14,591 bases of DNA, taken from positions 1-14,591 of the forward strand of contig JAGADS010000110.1 of NCBI GenBank assembly GCA_017613485.1. The letters run 5' to 3'. The notes under the pieces are model-generated. The model did not search any database, was not told where the DNA came from, and saw nothing but the letters and a program-made list of their open reading frames with translations. A program made the translations under genes and the position numbers. Positions 2,873-13,663 of the stretch are shown one piece after another. Source of the DNA: Treponema sp. (GTDB lineage Bacteria; Spirochaetota; Spirochaetia; Treponematales; Treponemataceae). Position 1 is the stretch's first letter, and the number at the start of each line of letters is the position of its first letter.

Positions 2873-3033
2873 TGATTACGTGGAAACTGATCTAACTGTT
2901 TAGATTTCATTTCGTAAGTATTATCAGTTATTCTTTTCAACCTATGAAGTTCATCAAGCTTAGCTCGCACCATAGCGAGATCAGCATACGAATTGATTTC
3001 ATAGATTTGATTTGCCAAATGAAATGCAGCCAT
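2857..3033 (-). CDS. Small hypothetical protein, 58 aa, minus strand
   Basis: On the minus strand ATG at 3033 is preceded by AAGGAGGAG with ideal spacing, one of the strongest ribosome-binding sites in the window. The frame runs 58 codons to TAA at 2857-2859. The product starts MAAFHLANQIYEI, is predicted wholly helical, and contains a heptad-like stretch (ADLAMVRAKLDELHRLKRI) that could form a coiled coil, ending in a basic tail. It is oriented against the surrounding plus-strand genes and diverges from the 109-aa gene at 3154. The intervening 3034-3153 must hold promoters for both; a TATAAT for this strand lies at 3081-3086. The small size and isolated orientation would suit a small regulator or antitoxin, but nothing in the sequence proves that. 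Confidence 0.65.
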   Translation of the reverse strand: MAAFHLANQIYEINSYADLAMVRAKLDELHRLKRITDNTYEMKSKQLDQFPRNHQLKK

Positions 3034-3080
3034 AGTTACTCCTCCTTATATTAAGTTTTTCTTCAGCCAAAGATATTAGT

Positions 3081-3145
3081 ATTATACAGCATCAAATTCT
3101 CATAAAATGAGAAACACCTGTGATATTATATTTTTATACAGGAGG
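3081..3145. promoter_or_regulatory. Divergent control region with TTCTCAT/ATGAGAA palindrome (repeat copy A)
   Basis: This stretch separates the minus-strand 58-aa gene from the plus-strand 109-aa gene. It contains a perfect inverted repeat, TTCTCAT (3097-3103) and ATGAGAA (3107-3113), with an AAA spacer. A minus-strand TATAAT is at 3081-3086, and plus-strand -10-like TATTAT/TATATT at 3124-3132 comes before the AGGAGG of the next gene. No good -35 box is visible for either direction, so the palindrome may be where an activator or repressor binds. Bases 3081-3119 recur at 5714-5752 with 34 of 39 positions identical. Confidence 0.45.
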
Positions 3146-3153
3146 AAATGAAC

Positions 3154-3483
3154 ATGAAATACAGCAACTGTTTAATTGGGGCGATAAAGGCAAAGATAAA
3201 AAACAGGAAAGTTGAGATCCACACGTTTCCTTTCGCACTTAACAATAACCAGCTTCACTTCTACTGGGTAGATAAGGCTGAGAACAAAATGTATCATTAC
3301 TGCCTTCCCGGAAGCACAAAATTCTGCGTACCCCTGTTTAAAGGTGAGCTAAAGGTTAGAAGCCGTTCTCTCTTTGGATTAAAGATGATGAAGGAAATGA
3401 AGGAAAAAAACTGGTCCCAGAAAAAAATATCCAGGACCTTAAACAGAATGGGATTGGGGGATTTACACCTGCTGGATGATTAA
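3154..3483 (+). CDS. Hypothetical protein, 109 aa; intact copy of a partly duplicated locus
   Basis: I do not recognise this protein. Two in-frame ATGs exist; 3154 is preferred because AGGAGG (3140-3145) is 8 bases away, while 3148 is only 2 bases from it. The N-terminal 70 residues have alternating hydrophobic residues suggesting a beta-rich fold. The C-terminal 35 are basic and helical (KMMKEMKEKNWSQKKISRTL), possibly nucleic-acid binding. The protein ends MGLGDLHLLDD. Its upstream element and last codons reappear at 5714-5831 with the body of the gene missing, so it belongs to a repeated locus that brackets the methyltransferase-like module. It sits 137 bases before that module. Confidence 0.7.
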   Translation: MKYSNCLIGAIKAKIKNRKVEIHTFPFALNNNQLHFYWVDKAENKMYHYCLPGSTKFCVPLFKGELKVRSRSLFGLKMMKEMKEKNWSQKKISRTLNRMGLGDLHLLDD

Positions 3484-3497
3484 TAACTCACTACTTG

Positions 3498-3517
3498 CTT
3501 GAATATAAAAATTCAAG
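3498..3517. promoter_or_regulatory. CTTGAAT-N6-ATTCAAG interrupted palindrome (possible operator)
   Basis: A perfect 7-base inverted repeat (3498-3504 and 3511-3517) with an A+T spacer of 6 lies just upstream of the -35 box of the methyltransferase-like gene. The same half-sites recur inverted on the other side of the promoter (3566-3572 and 3595-3601, 22 bases apart). No T-tract follows that would make it a typical terminator. The layout suggests an operator, and the spacing suits a bipartite site read by two identical specificity half-domains. Confidence 0.45.
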
Positions 3518-3524
3518 AAAAACC

Positions 3525-3553
3525 TTGACATTCCGATATTTATGTTGTATATT
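3525..3553 (+). promoter_or_regulatory. Sigma-70-type promoter for the methyltransferase-specificity fusion
   Basis: TTGACA (3525-3530) and TATATT (3548-3553) are separated by 17 bases, a near-consensus housekeeping promoter. Transcription would start near 3560, giving a leader of about 60 bases that contains the second CTTGAAT/ATTCAAG pair. Paired boxes on both sides are the usual arrangement for autoregulation. Confidence 0.7.
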
Positions 3554-3565
3554 ATAATTAGATTG

Positions 3566-3601
3566 CTTGAATAAGGTAATAAATGCAATTTCTGATTCAA
3601 G
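3566..3601. promoter_or_regulatory. Second CTTGAAT...ATTCAAG inverted pair in the leader
   Basis: CTTGAAT (3566-3572) and ATTCAAG (3595-3601) flank a 22-base spacer between the promoter and the start at 3620. The 11 bases TTGCTTGAATA at 3563-3573 repeat those at 3495-3505 exactly. It could be a second operator, or a weak stem in the mRNA leader just before the Shine-Dalgarno site. Confidence 0.35.
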
Positions 3602-3619
3602 CCTACATGGAGGACTTTT

Positions 3620-5278
3620 ATGTCTTATGCAAAGCATTTTTATGTAGACAGGGCAATGCAGCAGTTCAACTTTCCTGCAAATGGCGAAGGACTAATAATC
3701 AGATATGTTATTCCTTTTGCCGCTTTTGTTGCTAAGAAAAACGGTCTTGCACTTTCTGTTACTGTAGCAGAGGCTCTTTGTGGCGATGATGTTCCTAGTG
3801 CTGTAAAAGAGTTTATTTCGGGTGACGGAGCTAAGTGGGCTAAAAGCACTCTTGAGACTTTTGAAAAGGTTTCAGCTGAAGACATTAAAAGTTACCTCAC
3901 AGACAAGATTGATGAAGGGAATGCCCGGCTTGGACTTAAGGACATGGTTGTAACAATACCTTCTTCTCTCAACGACTTGTGTGCAAGCACTCTGGATATT
4001 CGCAAGAATGATTCTGTTGCAGATCTTGGTGCAGGATTCGGTTCTTTCCTTATTCACGTTGCAAAAAACTTTCCATGTAAGAAGCTCGAAGGAATTGAAA
4101 TTAATCAGAGAATCAGGATCTTTGGAAGCATGCTTTCATATCTTGAAGATGTGTCTCCAGAGATTAAGCTTGCCGATGTCTTGAAGCTTGATGAAGGCAT
4201 TCAATACGACAAGATTCTTGCATTCCCGACTCTTAATTCTGACATGGTGATTCCATTCATCGAAAAGATTTTAAAACTTCTTTCTGATAAGGGACGTGCT
4301 GTAGTATTTCTGTTTCAGGGCTTCCTGTTCAATGAAGGTCACGGCCTGAAAGAGATACGTCAGAAGCTGATTGACGGTGGTTTTGTTGAAGCGGTTATTG
4401 AACTTCCTGCCGGGGTTTTACAGCCATACACTATGGTAAATACTGCACTGCTTGTTTTATCAAGGAACAACAAGTCTGTTCGGATTGTTGATGCCAGCGG
4501 CTTTTATGAGAATACAAGGAGAGGTGCAAGTACACTTACTGAAGATGCCGCAAAATCAATTCATCTCATGCTGGGTAAAGACAGCGAAAAATCTCGCAGT
4601 ATCAAAAATCAGGAGATTAAAGCCAAGGATTATAAGCTGACATCGCGGACTTATTTCCTCGAAGAAAAAATATCACTTGGCGGTGTAAAGGAATACGTAA
4701 AGCTTTCTGATCTTGCTGAGACGAAAATCATGCGTGGCGCTCAGATAAAGGCATCGGAGCTTGAGGAGCTTGGAAGTGACGAGGACACAGGAATCTATTA
4801 TGCCTTTGCAAAGGACATAAAGGATAACCGTCTTGCTTCGGATCTTAAGGCTATTAAGGAGATTGATAAAAAGCTTGAGAACATCGTGCTCAAAGATGGT
4901 GACATTCTGCTTGTAATGGCAATGACCGAAACTCTAAAAGCTGCGTATGTTGAGAATCTTAACGGAAGGAAAATCATTCCTGCCAGCAATATCTACATAA
5001 TACGTCTTGATAAGAAAAAGATTCTGCCGTTGTACTTCAAGATGCTTTTGGAAACAGAGCAGGCACTGCAGATTTTCAATGCCTTCTGCGGAAGTGCAAC
5101 AATCAAGTCTATCAGCGTGGATTTTCTGAACAGGCTTCATATTCCACTGCCACCGCTTGAAGTACAAAAAAAACTGGTTAGAAAATACAGTGAGATAGAG
5201 AATGAGAGCGAGTCCCTCAAACAACGGCTCGCGGCTCTGGCAAAGGAAAAGGGTGAGGTCCTGGCTTCACTCTTTTGA
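3620..5278 (+). CDS. HsdM-HsdS (half) fusion, type I methyltransferase-like, probably inactive
   Basis: Residues 1-110 are an N-terminal helical region. Residues 111-340 match the N6-adenine methyltransferase fold of HsdM, with SAM-binding motif I DLGAGFGSF (135-143), the acidic strand end EGIEIN (157-162), and the later GRAVVFLFQGFLF and LPAGVLQPYTMVNTALLVLSR stretches. From about 360 to 552 it resembles one half of HsdS: VKLSDL, GDILL, ASNIYIIRL, the IPLPPLEVQKKLV signature (507-519), then a helical spacer. The catalytic motif IV (NPPF) should follow YDKILA but reads FPTL (202-205), so the Asn needed for adenine methylation is absent. No HsdR is in the window. The start at 3620 has GGAGG at 3609-3613. 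A homodimer would present two identical target-recognition domains and read an interrupted palindrome. Possible roles are a DNA-binding regulator, a partner for a methylase elsewhere, or a decayed enzyme. Confidence 0.85.
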   Translation: MSYAKHFYVDRAMQQFNFPANGEGLIIRYVIPFAAFVAKKNGLALSVTVAEALCGDDVPSAVKEFISGDGAKWAKSTLETFEKVSAEDIKSYLTDKIDEGNARLGLKDMVVTIPSSLNDLCASTLDIRKNDSVADLGAGFGSFLIHVAKNFPCKKLEGIEINQRIRIFGSMLSYLEDVSPEIKLADVLKLDEGIQYDKILAFPTLNSDMVIPFIEKILKLLSDKGRAVVFLFQGFLFNEGHGLKEIRQKLIDGGFVEAVIELPAGVLQPYTMVNTALLVLSRNNKSVRIVDASGFYENTRRGASTLTEDAAKSIHLMLGKDSEKSRSIKNQEIKAKDYKLTSRTYFLEEKISLGGVKEYVKLSDLAETKIMRGAQIKASELEELGSDEDTGIYYAFAKDIKDNRLASDLKAIKEIDKKLENIVLKDGDILLVMAMTETLKAAYVENLNGRKIIPASNIYIIRLDKKKILPLYFKMLLETEQALQIFNAFCGSATIKSISVDFLNRLHIPLPPLEVQKKLVRKYSEIENESESLKQRLAALAKEKGEVLASLF

Positions 5279-5374
5279 TCTAAAAAAATAAAAAGAAATC
5301 GATTTTTCTCTCTATGTTTTTTGCTTTGTCATGCGGCAAGGCAGGGGGAGTCGTCGTCTCTTCACAAAAATACC

Positions 5375-5399
5375 GGTGGTTGACCTTGTCGAAACCACC
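5375..5399. repeat. GGTGGTT/AACCACC palindromic repeat unit
   Basis: GGTGGTT (5375-5381) and AACCACC (5393-5399) form a perfect 7-base stem. Inside it GAC and GTC can pair around CTT, leaving GA bulged. I recall sequences of this kind (GTGGTT...GTCGAAACCAC) as short dispersed repeats in many bacterial genomes, but only one copy is in this window. It lies just before the AGGAGG of the XRE gene and could fold in the mRNA, damping translation, or act as a weak transcription barrier after the fusion gene. Confidence 0.5.
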
Positions 5400-5419
5400 A
5401 TGCTACACAGGAGGATTTT

Positions 5420-5671
5420 ATGAACATGGAAACAAAAGCCACCAGAAACACTTATTCAGAGTTCCTCGAATTCAATCTTCAGGATGCAGTTTCGGAGAAT
5501 GTTAAGCATTGCATTGAGGAATCAGGCCTTACAGCCGAGCAGATAAGTTACCGTTCAAACCTCTCTATCGCAACAATCTATCGGCTAAAATCAGGCCAGA
5601 ACATTTCAATTCATGGAATCTGTGCACTGGCAGAGGCATTGGGGAAAGACTGGCGTGCGTTCTTTGAGTGA
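5420..5671 (+). CDS. XRE-family helix-turn-helix regulator, 83 aa
   Basis: Residues 23-82 form a Cro/C1-type DNA-binding domain. ESGLTAEQISYRSNLS (34-49) is helix 2 and the turn, IATIYRLKSGQ (50-60) is the recognition helix, and NISIHGICALAEALG (61-75) closes the bundle with the usual I-xx-L-xx-LA-AL-G pattern. There is no second domain, so it is likely a small dimeric repressor or antitoxin-like regulator. The start at 5420 has AGGAGG at 5409-5414; ATG at 5426 is an in-frame alternative. It lies 141 bases after the fusion gene on the same strand, with no strong terminator between them. It is the obvious candidate to bind one of the palindromic elements in this region, though which one is unknown. 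Confidence 0.85.
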   Translation: MNMETKATRNTYSEFLEFNLQDAVSENVKHCIEESGLTAEQISYRSNLSIATIYRLKSGQNISIHGICALAEALGKDWRAFFE

Positions 5672-5713
5672 GGAGAATAAACCATGTAAAAAAGTATAAA
5701 GGTATATAAAAGG

Positions 5714-5831
5714 ATTATACAGCCTCAGATTTTCAAAATATGAGAAACACCTATACTATTCTATTTATAACAGGATAAGGGGATTGGGGGCTTTATACCC
5801 TCCGCTTATTGAATTCCCCATGCTGACGTGA
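5714..5831 (+). pseudogene. Internally deleted copy of the 109-aa gene locus (repeat copy B)
   Basis: Bases 5714-5752 match 3081-3119 at 34 of 39 positions, including most of the TTCTCAT/ATGAGAA palindrome (here TTTTCA at 5730-5735 and ATGAGAA at 5740-5746). After an ACAGGA like that before the 3154 gene, the sequence jumps to GGGATTGGGGG (5780-5790), identical to 3450-3460 near the end of that gene, and continues in the same reading frame as G-L-G-A-L-Y-P-P-L-I-E to TGA at 5829-5831. The gene body of about 300 bases is gone. In the intact copy the leader has ACAGGA and the gene end has ACAGAA, so deletion between short ACAG repeats explains the structure. The upstream element survives and may still act as a promoter for the next gene. 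Confidence 0.6.
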
Positions 5832-5845
5832 TAAAATCAAGAGGA

Positions 5846-6742
5846 ATGGTCTCTTTTAGCAGAAAGAAGTTTTATTGGATGTTCTCTCTTTTGTCTTTTC
5901 CGGGCTTGATTTGGGCTCAAGGAACACACGGAGACGATTCTCTTGAAAACTTTGCTCACGGTGTCGGTGATTCTATAATTTCAATAACGGATCTGTTTGC
6001 GGCTCAGGATGACGGTGGACAAAATCTAAGGCGTTTGATTAGGCTTGTAATAATTGCGCTTGGACTTGCATCTCTGGCTGTTATTGTCTTTACAGTTCTA
6101 CGGCGAATGTTTTATAACCGTTCATTCAAGAAATACTACATTCAGCTGGAAAAAGATCTTGATGAGGCACATCTTCTTTCTGATGCTCCTGAATGGGACA
6201 AATTGATTGATGACTGTGTTATTCTCGGCAAGAAAATTGACCGGCATACACATCGAAAACATAATTCAGTAGTGGTTTCATCTCTAACATATCGTATTGC
6301 ACTTGAGCTGGAGGTTCCCAAGGAACAGGCTTTGATTTATCTTTTAGCAGGACTTGTTTATGATGCAGGTTTTCTGGATCTGGAGGCTGACCTTTTCCGC
6401 GTTGAGATTTTAAGTGCAAGGGAAAAAAAGAATTTGACCCGCCATGTCCTTCATTATGCAGACTATTTACCGGCCGCATCTGATGACATTCAGGGGGTAT
6501 TTGCACAGGCATGTATGTTCCACCACGAGAATGAAAACGGTTCAGGCTATCCGGAGTCGCTTACAAGCAAGGATATTCCTCTTTTAGCTAAAATCATCCA
6601 TGTAGCCGAGAGTTATTCATCCCTTATTTCTGAGCGAACCTATCATCACAAGCTTAGCCCAAAAAGAGCCATCGAGGATTTAAGGAAAAAGAAAAAATTC
6701 TACGATGAGGGGGTTATTGATATTCTTTCAACCTTAGTGTAA
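5846..6742 (+). CDS. Membrane-anchored protein with degenerate HD-GYP domain, 298 aa
   Basis: The N-terminus (MVSFSRKKFYWMFSLLSF...WAQG) looks like a signal peptide with cleavage near A24. A short exported stretch follows, then one membrane segment (about 67-85) and a cytoplasmic domain. Residues 135-298 resemble the HD-GYP family, which hydrolyses cyclic di-GMP: HHENENGSGYP (226-236) fits HHExxDGxGYP, followed by IPLLAKIIHVAESYSSLISERTYH. The defining HD pair is missing because the expected LHDxG reads VYDAG (171-175), so metal binding and hydrolysis are doubtful; it may bind the nucleotide or a partner instead. The start is uncertain. GTG at 5828 has no ribosome-binding site and overlaps the upstream remnant, while ATG at 5846 has GAGG very close. 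glmS follows after 35 bases, suggesting one transcript. Confidence 0.8.
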   Translation: MVSFSRKKFYWMFSLLSFPGLIWAQGTHGDDSLENFAHGVGDSIISITDLFAAQDDGGQNLRRLIRLVIIALGLASLAVIVFTVLRRMFYNRSFKKYYIQLEKDLDEAHLLSDAPEWDKLIDDCVILGKKIDRHTHRKHNSVVVSSLTYRIALELEVPKEQALIYLLAGLVYDAGFLDLEADLFRVEILSAREKKNLTRHVLHYADYLPAASDDIQGVFAQACMFHHENENGSGYPESLTSKDIPLLAKIIHVAESYSSLISERTYHHKLSPKRAIEDLRKKKKFYDEGVIDILSTLV

Positions 6743-10575: not shown

Positions 10576-12147
10576 TTACTTTTCCTTCCATCCCAGAAGC
10601 CCCTTTCCCTCACTGGAGAAAACGAGGCAGACTTTTTTCATGCTCTTACCGCTCACTTCAAATCTTTGTGAATATCCGTTTGCATCGATTTGATCTAAGC
10701 CTTCATCAGCAACATCGTCAAATTCATGGCCTTTGTCCATCTTAAGCTCAAATATATAAACCATATCTTTTGTGGCAACAACAACATCGCTTCTTCCTGC
10801 AACCGACTGCAGCTCTGAGACTACACGCCAGCCTGTCATGCGGAACATCAGGTGGGTCACGGACTCGTAGTAATTCTCGCACATGTCTTTTTTAACAATC
10901 GTGGGCAAGTCAGCTATGGCGGATTTAATGATTGAGAGTGCCTTATCCAGATTTTTATTCCTTAGTGCCACTCGGAGGTTGTTTATCTCAAGCCCTATGT
11001 CATCGTAAGGAACGGTGATGAATTTCTTGAGAAGAACATCAAGAAAGCCCTCCTCCACCTCTCTGTTCGGGAAATCGAGTGTGTAAAGCCTTGTCTCCTT
11101 TTCAAAATCCTTTATCGTGAAATAGCCGCTCTGGTATACAACTGGAAGCATATTATGAGAGTCCGGGTCGTAGTTCTTGAACTGATTTTCAGTCGCGAGC
11201 CTTCCGTTCACCATGTTCTCAAGCTCAAGAGGCTGGTTTTGCAGTGTCTTTACAAGGAACGATGGTGTGCCGCTTTCAAACCAGTAGGAGCCGAAATCTT
11301 TACTCATAAAACATTTTAAAAGGCAGAACGGGTTGAACATTCCCTCGACATTGTGCGTGAAGTGATAGCCGTCGTACATATCTGCAAGCTTTGCCTTTGT
11401 CTCATCAACAGTCATTTCCTGTGCTTTTGCAAGGGTCTCTATTTCTGGCGTGAAATATTGATTAAGCTCTGTTTCCGATATTCCGCAGATTGAAGAGTAT
11501 GCACTGTCAAGGCTTATGTCGTTAAGCTGGTTCAGTCCGCTGAAAATATTTACATGACTTACTTTAGTTATTCCAGTAATAAAAAGAAAACGGATGTATT
11601 TGTCGCAGTCCTTGAGTGGGCTGTAGAAGCTTCTGAGCTCCTGTCTGTTCTGTTCCTCGTAGTCCGTGTAAAGTGCGTCAAGAATCGGCTTGTCGTACTC
11701 GTCAATTAAAATGACAATCTGTTTTCCGGTTTTTTCAAATGTTTTTTTTATCAGGTTTGCGAATCGCTCGGCAGGATCATCGCTTTGACGTTCAATTTTA
11801 TATAATTCCTCATTTTCAGTTACAATAGTATTGAGGCGCGCTTTCAATTTTTTGTTGGTTTCGAAGCTGTTTAATCCGAAGCTGATTTTCAAAACAGGAT
11901 ACTCAGTCCACTCCTTCTCCAGCTTTTCTATTGCAAGCCCCTGGAATAACTCCTTTTTTCCGAGAAAATAATATTCCATGGTTGAAAGCAGCAGACTTTT
12001 CCCGAAGCGTCTTGGGCGTGAAAGAAAATAAGGTGTGCTCAAGCGGGCAAGCTCGTAAACCAAACCCGTCTTGTCTGCGTAAAGGTAGTTCCCCCTGCGG
12101 AGTTTCTCAAAATCCTGAATGCCAATAGGCAAAAATCTTTCGTCCAT
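10576..12147 (-). CDS. AAA-ATPase-like / PD-(D/E)XK nuclease-fold protein, 523 aa
   Basis: This matches the widespread two-domain family with an N-terminal AAA-ATPase-like region (PF09820 type) and a C-terminal PD-(D/E)XK domain (PF08011 type). The opening IGIQDFEKLRRGNYLYADKT (8-27) and the P-loop SRPRRFGKSLLLS (43-55) are diagnostic. Walker B is VILIDEYDKPILD (144-156), followed by FITGITKVSHVNIFSGLN (189-206). The C-terminal domain has GRSDVVV (451-457) and FELK (466-469), giving the D...ExK active-site pattern, then LDQIDANGY. Both sites look intact. The family is numerous in Treponema and Bacteroidota; its function is not established and it is often a multicopy paralogue. The start at 12147 has no strong ribosome-binding site. 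It lies 46 bases after the TPR gene on the same strand and could be co-transcribed, or use a weak TTTAAA-N17-TATACT just upstream. Confidence 0.92.
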   Translation of the reverse strand: MDERFLPIGIQDFEKLRRGNYLYADKTGLVYELARLSTPYFLSRPRRFGKSLLLSTMEYYFLGKKELFQGLAIEKLEKEWTEYPVLKISFGLNSFETNKKLKARLNTIVTENEELYKIERQSDDPAERFANLIKKTFEKTGKQIVILIDEYDKPILDALYTDYEEQNRQELRSFYSPLKDCDKYIRFLFITGITKVSHVNIFSGLNQLNDISLDSAYSSICGISETELNQYFTPEIETLAKAQEMTVDETKAKLADMYDGYHFTHNVEGMFNPFCLLKCFMSKDFGSYWFESGTPSFLVKTLQNQPLELENMVNGRLATENQFKNYDPDSHNMLPVVYQSGYFTIKDFEKETRLYTLDFPNREVEEGFLDVLLKKFITVPYDDIGLEINNLRVALRNKNLDKALSIIKSAIADLPTIVKKDMCENYYESVTHLMFRMTGWRVVSELQSVAGRSDVVVATKDMVYIFELKMDKGHEFDDVADEGLDQIDANGYSQRFEVSGKSMKKVCLVFSSEGKGLLGWKEK

Positions 12148-12193: not shown

Positions 12194-13540
12194 TCAAAGT
12201 TGAATCTGCTTTAGAATCTTTGTCAAAAGCGGCTTTTCTACAAGGTCAAGCGGGCGGCCTTCGATGTACTTGTGGGCTTCCTCACTGAAAACACCGGCTG
12301 TGATGCAGAATCCGCGGTCAGCCTTTACATCGTGCATGTGTCCATGGAAATCCTGTACATAAAGCTCTCCTGTTGAACCAGAAGTGCGGAAGAAACGGAA
12401 AAGCTCTGAATCCTGCCATTTTATTGAGTCAACCTCTGCAAAAATATCAGTGAATGCGGGACCTACGTTGATATCCTGAATTTTAATCGTTGCTCCCTTG
12501 TACATTCCCTCAATGAATTTGCGGCACAGGGCAACAAAGTCAGAAGCTCCGGCCTGCAGATATACCTGAAGGTTGCGGTTCTGGCTCAATTCCTGATAGC
12601 GTGAGGCAAGCGAGTTGACGTCCTTGTAATTTGAGCTCTGGGAACGTATCTTGTTCAAAAGCTGGAGACCCTTTGAGAAATCTCCCTTGTTGAAATAACA
12701 CTGTGCGCTCTTGTATTCAAGATCAAGCAAAAGATCCTGCGGTATGTTCTGATGCTTTGTGCCAATCTCAAAATCCTGGATTGCGGCGTCAAAATCACCG
12801 GTCTTCATGTGGTAAGAGCCAGCTTCCAGACATGAACGTGCTCCGTAAACAGGATCCGGCCTCAAATGCATGAAAACTTTGATGGCTTTATCACCATGAC
12901 CTTCTGCTGACATGGAGTCTGCCATATCAAACAGAGCCTCCTTATTGTTCGGGTCCTCTGCAAGGGCTTTTTTAAGGCATGGAAGGCTGTCGCGGTAGTG
13001 GTGGCCGTAATAGTAGCACTGTCCGAGGATAAGATACACTCCCTGCGCCTCTGGATTTGCCACAAGAGCTTTTTTAAGGCATGGAATGGCTTTGTCGTAC
13101 TGTTTGTCCTTGAACATAGCCAGACCAACGTTGTAGTTAACTTCAAAATCATGCGGATTAAGCTTATATGCGGCACTCAGGGATGCAACTGCCTCCTGAA
13201 GACGGTCAAGATTGAGAGAACATATTCCACAGCGCAAAACTGCCTTAAACGGATCTATGCGGGGATCCTTACCTGCCAACCTGAACAGCTTGTCGTAAAT
13301 GGAAAAAGCCTTATCCCACATCTTATTGTTAAAATACAAGTCTCCAAGTTCAATAAGAGCCTCAGGATCATTTGGATTGCGATCCAGCTTGCGGTTGGCT
13401 GTCTTGATAATCTGAGCCTGAGATTTACCGCGTCCTGAAGCAGTTTTATTTGAGGAACTGCCTTTTTTGCCCGCAAAGAGAACTAAGACAACGATAAGTA
13501 CTAAAAAAATAACTGCTGCAATCAAAATTGAAAAAAGCAT
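12194..13540 (-). CDS. Membrane-anchored TPR protein with a degenerate Mrr-like C-terminal domain
   Basis: An N-terminal hydrophobic segment (about 2-23, then KKGSSS) anchors the protein, with the rest probably in the cytoplasm. Residues about 45-325 hold several tetratricopeptide units, for example DPEALIELGDLYFNNKMWDKA, DFEVNYNVGLAMFKDKQYDKA and NNKEALFDMADSMSAEGHGDKA, which serve as a protein-binding scaffold. Residues 331-443 look like the Mrr endonuclease fold: an N-terminal helix pair (SDFVALCRKFIEGM), TDIFAE (364-369), then GELYVQDFHGHMHDVKADRG, CITAGVFSEEA and EGRPLDLVE. The QxK part of the active site is not preserved (FRFFRT at 381-386), so nuclease activity is unlikely. The start at 13540 is preferred over 13549 because GAAGG sits directly against 13549 but is well spaced from 13540. 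The domain call is by eye. Confidence 0.85.
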   Translation of the reverse strand: MLFSILIAAVIFLVLIVVLVLFAGKKGSSSNKTASGRGKSQAQIIKTANRKLDRNPNDPEALIELGDLYFNNKMWDKAFSIYDKLFRLAGKDPRIDPFKAVLRCGICSLNLDRLQEAVASLSAAYKLNPHDFEVNYNVGLAMFKDKQYDKAIPCLKKALVANPEAQGVYLILGQCYYYGHHYRDSLPCLKKALAEDPNNKEALFDMADSMSAEGHGDKAIKVFMHLRPDPVYGARSCLEAGSYHMKTGDFDAAIQDFEIGTKHQNIPQDLLLDLEYKSAQCYFNKGDFSKGLQLLNKIRSQSSNYKDVNSLASRYQELSQNRNLQVYLQAGASDFVALCRKFIEGMYKGATIKIQDINVGPAFTDIFAEVDSIKWQDSELFRFFRTSGSTGELYVQDFHGHMHDVKADRGFCITAGVFSEEAHKYIEGRPLDLVEKPLLTKILKQIQL

Positions 13541-13663
13541 AAAACTCATCCTTCAATTAAAAAATAGAATTTCACTTCAAATATCGGTAAATTCCTTCTC
13601 CCGCATTAGTTTTAGAAATATAAGAAAATATTGCAAAAATTTAGAGTTTTTAGGGATTTTGAT

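Follow-up and report, generated by a model that had tools for sequence, protein, structure and literature searches.

What can a type I methyltransferase be for when the Asn of its active site has been replaced? The question arises at a gene of Treponema sp. (GCA_017613485.1, contig JAGADS010000110.1), read here on the forward strand in a window, that is, the whole stretch of 14,591 nt that was analysed. The gene (3620..5278, + strand) codes for an HsdM-HsdS fusion of 552 aa. Its methylase half has the HsdM fold and matched the N6_Mtase profile; the specificity half matched PF01420 (39.4 bits) and contains one target-recognition domain (TRD) only (residues 358-505; 4691..5134, +), which is the region of highest conservation. 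Both matches bear out the original prediction of an HsdM fold joined to half an HsdS. A long C-terminal helix in the secondary structure (residues 512-551; 5153..5272, +) takes the place of the HsdS dimerisation helix and may have its role. The fusion family was found in Treponema, including several from the rumen; the rumen strains Treponema bryantii XBD1002 and NK4A124 and T. ruminis RU1 are among its carriers. Four homologues carry a name from their source: N-6 DNA methylase in three cases, and hypothetical protein or site-specific DNA-methyltransferase in the fourth. With most named homologues labelled N-6 DNA methylase, methylation may be predicted where none occurs.

Catalytic and SAM motifs of the methylase half

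In a profile alignment with canonical HsdM, F202-P-T-L falls on N-P-P-F, so that FPTL (residues 202-205; 4223..4234, +) indeed stands at the motif IV position as first read from the sequence, and 23 residues are missing from the loop that follows. In PacII, as described in PMC9613975, the catalytic motif is NPPF in M1 and NPPY in M2. The replacement was followed through 81 full-length homologues (P0001-P0085, with four shorter rows set aside). At position 202, 78 have Phe, two have Ile and one has Cys; Asn, Asp or Ser was found there in none of the 81, and NPPF, which had been looked for in close relatives, was likewise absent at this position. Pro 203 is conserved in all 81, and position 204 drifts (Asp in 33, Pro in 21, Glu in 18). 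A [NDS]PP[FYW] string elsewhere in the protein is absent from all 81. Since FPPF is read at motif IV in some members (P0061, P0073, P0075), a plain change of Asn to Phe followed by drift would be the simplest history of the motif.

The SAM motif I, DLGAGFGSF (residues 135-143; 4022..4048, +), is retained as the original prediction had it, with its key residues conserved in the family: G137, F143 and G158 are present in 81 of 81 homologues, D135, G139 and E160 in 80, and D186 in 78. Thus, loss of the catalytic motif in a methylase-specificity fusion is confirmed at the sequence level as real and as a trait of the family. From the same alignments we infer that methyl transfer has been lost and that the protein probably still binds SAM.

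A fusion protein that still methylates DNA, either by an unusual active site or with the help of an M subunit supplied by a second type I system of the cell, was also considered. The retained fold and SAM motifs are compatible with it. Type I complexes contain two M subunits, and N6_Mtase genes were found in 13 of 13 genomes examined, some of them besides the fusion. The near-constant Phe at the Asn site and the loss of the loop after motif IV speak against activity, and so does the tree, in which relatives that keep Asn form a clade of their own (support 99/98). An active enzyme is therefore the most improbable of the readings considered here.

These Asn-keeping relatives, the NYPF family of M-S fusions (alignment A2; P0101 and relatives), have the same architecture (hhalign probability 100%, E 2.3e-72) but differ at the catalytic site, where 118 of 121 members, as counted among the best 120 of 614 matches listed, keep Asn or Asp. 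The clade of the window, with L107, has support of 99/99. In a second clade of the fusion, supported by 100/100 when L105 is included, the Asn is replaced by Phe, Cys or Val, and a different HTH gene lies directly upstream in nine of ten loci, L105 being the one without. The tree gives no settled order of the clades and hence no count of Asn losses. Two of the three NYPF loci examined (L103, L123), and likewise the related L124, have a partner of 177 aa; the proteins of L103 and L123 were not recognised by Pfam. NYPF fusions adjoin hsdM-hsdS genes at L103, where hsdR is present too (Pfam), and at L122 (BLAST and by eye). A relative of either XRE was not found at the three NYPF loci.

Two arrangements were seen alongside. 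At L103:1-7868 the NYPF fusion and the 177-aa protein lie just upstream of hsdM, hsdS and hsdR (Pfam). At L102:5281-7901 a sigma-70 region 2 protein is encoded directly upstream of another M-S fusion, in which motif IV reads CDMIY.

Selection on the fusion and its XRE partner

The fusion is under purifying selection. Eight of nine pairs gave dN/dS values of 0.09-0.22, seven of them within 0.09-0.17, and TRD values of 0.07-0.11, the ratios of the wider comparisons being rough because dS exceeds 1 there, and L001/L002 as well as L008/L009/L010 being close kin and hence not independent. The ninth pair, L001/L002, is 99% identical; its dN/dS of 0.44 comes from very few changes and is uninformative on the TRD. 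In L008/L009 the methylase core had a ratio of 0.06 against 0.10 for the TRD; in the other seven pairs the TRD had the lower value. Reading frames were open in 11 of 11 loci tested. Identity to the window, in bins which take in fragments and many near-identical rows, was greater for the TRD than for the methylase core in each of the five bins above 35% (87 vs 79, 78 vs 66, 68 vs 60, 66 vs 53 and 48 vs 37%) and equal in the lowest (29 vs 29). In active S subunits the TRDs are expected to be the most variable part. The view that the gene is not simply decaying thus gains from the purifying selection and from the specificity half being best conserved, a pattern that suggests a role in DNA binding.

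A second gene belongs to the locus. An XRE-type helix-turn-helix protein of 83 aa (5420..5671, +) matched HTH_3 with 21.8 bits, below the cut-off of 23, and PADLOC Control_protein weakly (15 bits). The gene lies directly downstream of the full-length fusion in 12 of 12 loci (window, L001-L010, L025/L107; the close kin L001/L002 and L008/L009/L010 are included), so that the proposed pairing with an XRE regulator has held. It is also present at L011, where the fusion is cut by the contig edge, and beside the remnants L013 and L014; no match was obtained at L012, a Ruminococcus relative outside the clade of the window. The intergenic stretch between fusion and XRE (5279..5419, +) has a block conserved in the nearest relatives, and no Rfam match was found in 2900-5900 of the window.

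Among 196 Treponema genomes, 21 carry the XRE family, at 24 places in all. A fusion or remnant adjoins 14 of these places and none adjoins nine, L048 being too near a contig edge (BLAST); nine of 23 judgeable places are thus without the fusion. L057 corresponds to the L007 site (95% identity) with the fusion lost except for about the last 100 bp, and the XRE and the downstream gene remain. The remnants L013 and L014, 98% alike, retain approximately residues 447-550. Upstream of other XRE genes (L061, L065) a stem-like stretch GCCRG...CTGGC was seen by eye.

Remnants of this kind, and neighbours that change from locus to locus, are what would be expected if the fusion were a decaying restriction-modification remnant on mobile islands. 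The low dN/dS, the open frames, a Phe replacement common to 78 of 81 homologues and the constant XRE partner argue against decay, which we regard as improbable.

The predicted promoter and its inverted repeats

The sequence upstream of the fusion contains a predicted promoter (3525..3558, +) composed of TTGACA, a 17-nt spacer and TATATTATAAT. A TTGACA/TTTACA box and a box like TATATTATAAT are equally spaced in 10 of 10 upstream regions. In the window the half-sites CTTGAAT/ATTCAAG occur four times (3498, 3511, 3566 and 3595) as two inverted pairs flanking the predicted promoter. The first, CTTGAAT-N6-ATTCAAG (3498..3517), is a candidate upstream operator; the second pair, CTTGAAT and ATTCAAG with a gap of 22 nt (3566..3601), is a candidate downstream operator.

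A free-gap palindrome test, run first, was mostly non-significant: the window was equalled by 38 of 200 shuffles, and the best loci were L003 (4 of 200), L008 (11) and L009 (14). A half-site test, chosen after it and taking the better of two word lengths without correction, was applied to ten loci, omitting L002, nearly identical to L001, and L025, which has too little upstream DNA. None of 1000 shuffles equalled the count of the window, and no more than 12 in 1000 did so, at the better word length, in L004, L006, L008, L009 and L010. In L001, L003, L005 and L007 the repeats did not go beyond shuffles (at least 159 of 1000). Overall, half-sites are repeated beyond shuffles in six of ten loci, close kin L008-L010 among them.

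The repeats were also followed in the genomes. TTGATAAACGYTTATCAA, with up to two mismatches, has two copies each at the fusion promoter in G008, G009 and G010 and one more match off the promoter, on one strand of G009; the reversed control gave four matches in three genomes. The looser TTGAAT-N6-ATTCAA, searched for as the mark of a possible regulon, occurs at 19 places in nine of ten Treponema genomes (G001-G010), one of them at this promoter, and its reversed control at two.

Which protein would read these repeats? Homodimers with a single TRD read GAA-N7-TTC, TCA-N8-TGA and GAAY-N5-RTTC, with gaps of 5-8 nt, in the cases described in PMC3874165 and PMC3320862. The first repeat of the window, GAAT-N6-ATTC, fits this form, and the second with its 22-nt gap does not. 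An account in PMC3874152 has methylases repressing their own promoter. The recognition helix of the XRE is nearly constant, reading TI[N/Y/S]RLK in 23 of 23 rows, and the repeats change from locus to locus; because of this the TRD appears the better candidate as their reader.

The alternative gives the XRE the role of operon repressor. The fusion would then be an inactive type I assembly that acts as a decoy for phage anti-restriction proteins, senses them, or directs adjoining AAA+ ATPases to DNA as their targeting subunit, in a defence module. The XRE could be the reader of the repeats. This, the occurrence of the XRE gene without the fusion at nine of the judgeable places and its survival at L057, where all but about the last 100 bp of the fusion is gone, count against the autoregulatory reading given below. 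We consider this alternative possible but doubtful; the evidence from the neighbouring genes is taken up in the next section.

Another palindrome, TTCTCA-N5-TGAGAA, is present at 3097-3113 and, as an imperfect copy, at 5730-5746 of the window. Each copy lies in one of a pair of 64-nt direct repeats, 80% alike, on either side of the fusion and XRE genes. Considered as an XRE operator, it precedes XRE-AAA+ modules of other Treponema and is also found elsewhere, clustered in some genomes.

With its catalytic residue lost, its DNA-reading half best conserved and a regulator gene beside each full-length copy examined, the fusion resembles an enzyme repurposed as a DNA-binding switch. The best reading, to which we give a probability of about 50%, is that of an inactive DNA-binding pseudo-methyltransferase with a single TRD and an HTH partner, autoregulating through the promoter repeats. 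On this reading the fusion protein probably controls its own promoter. A type I M-S fusion would have lost methyl transfer and kept its fold, the residues of the SAM pocket and one TRD under selection. Two copies probably pair through the C-terminal helix, like engineered S subunits with a single TRD, and such a dimer would read an interrupted palindrome, its likeliest site being the inverted repeats that bracket its own promoter. Alone or with the XRE protein, with which it probably shares a transcript, the fusion protein would repress its operon. Release might come by, for example, loss of SAM, DNA-mimic anti-restriction proteins or competing DNA, and would raise expression of the module and perhaps also of the AAA+ ATPases of the island. 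The wider output of the module could be regulation of the island, sensing, or DNA targeting for a AAA+ defence module. If the DNA-binding role is true, this would be an example of a restriction core turned into a regulator, and the predicted promoter and its repeat offer concrete material for testing.

Genomic setting and known systems

The original prediction placed no HsdR in the window, and none of the 13 ORFs scanned there has an HsdR domain. The same holds more widely: in nine of ten relative genomes (G001-G010) the contig of the fusion has no HSDR_N match, several of these contigs being short (G002 and G008, <6 kb). In G003, a single chromosome, the nearest match lies >200 kb from the fusion, and G001 has no HSDR_N match anywhere.

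Genes around the fusion differ between loci, and the module appears to sit in accessory islands, often with AAA+ ATPases. Five of ten genomes (G003, G004, G005, G009, G010) have, 1.3-7.7 kb downstream and on the strand of the fusion, a AAA+ gene 55-61% identical to the L005 AAA+ or, in G005, the L005 gene itself. The AAA+ proteins of L005 and L010, the two scanned, matched PADLOC IetA. In the second clade PF00004 was found in all seven neighbour proteins scanned (L104, L106, L152, L156), with two consecutive AAA+ genes near the fusion at L106, L152 and L156 and one scanned at L104. Recurrent AAA+ ATPases, the promoter repeats and the second clade with its own HTH gene had no place in the original prediction.

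These neighbours lend weight to a defence module, as do AAA+ genes following fusion-less XRE genes at L049 and L052 (BLAST) and at L053, L055 and L056 (by eye), a GajB/UvrD-like protein at L005, and neighbours that we take from the ORF lists to be DUF3800-like and macro-domain-like. The association is uneven, however. AAA+ of the L005 type are absent from the vicinity of the fusion in G001 and G007 and from the short contigs of G002 and G008, G006 has a different AAA+ 2.5 kb downstream on the other strand, and such genes are common in some genomes (12 matches in G010).

Further features of the surroundings were recorded. DnaB-like genes near the fusion (window, L005, L009, L010) are relatives of a gene present in 13 of 13 genomes and were not counted as part of the module. 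A close phage or plasmid home was not indicated by the viral-contig, phage and plasmid collections searched: viral contigs yielded no relatives, phage records gave ten weak matches with none over 80% of the query, and plasmid records gave 1026 matches, all below 60% identity and one covering at least 80% of the query. In the window itself, 12194-13549 encodes a TPR protein whose C-terminal part matches the restriction endonuclease domain Mrr_cat above cut-off (31.3 bits), and 10576-12147 a predicted AAA-ATPase with a PDDEXK nuclease domain (PF09820, PF08011). At L108:1825-6481 a half-HsdS without the methylase half is encoded in a row with a DnaB-like protein and a AAA+ protein that shares 62% identity with the one at L006.

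Returning to the autoregulated pseudo-methyltransferase, a wider proposal may be made tentatively, with less confidence than the reading itself. The lineage would have given up catalysis, perhaps before the present clades diverged, and become sequence-specific DNA-binding switches that sense SAM, with a separate HTH protein for each clade and, in many cases, AAA+ ATPases; such a regulatory or guard module, derived from the core of a restriction enzyme, might respond to phage DNA mimics or to depletion of SAM. Searches of the open-licence PMC literature found no described family of type I M-S proteins that regularly lacks the catalytic residue.

The closest known systems share parts of this architecture. 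The HsdM and HsdS of type I R-M systems (EcoR124I, PacII, EcoKI) have the fold of both halves and the SAM motif, and the single TRD is as in homodimeric S subunits; the fusion differs in its joined M and S, Phe for the catalytic Asn, the loop deletion, the XRE partner and the lack of a linked HsdR. Esub1 (PDB 8vsq/8vsr) is a stand-alone half HsdS and, unlike the fusion, has no methylase half. The best PADLOC match of the fusion is mad2, the methylase Mad2 of MADS (77.7 bits), and its S half also matched mad5, the S subunit Mad5 of that system (45 bits), but the fusion falls far under the NCBIfam cut-off for Mad2 (20.5 vs 720 bits). RptR, described in PMC12255303 as a repressor of type I R-M defence islands, is likewise a small regulator of a type I-related island; as presented there, it differs in binding TAGCTA and in accompanying type I R-M systems. 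With the C proteins of R-M systems and with self-repressing methylases the module shares a small HTH gene adjoining a methylase gene and repeats at the promoter, whereas it has no endonuclease and its methylase half is, as judged from its motifs, inactive.
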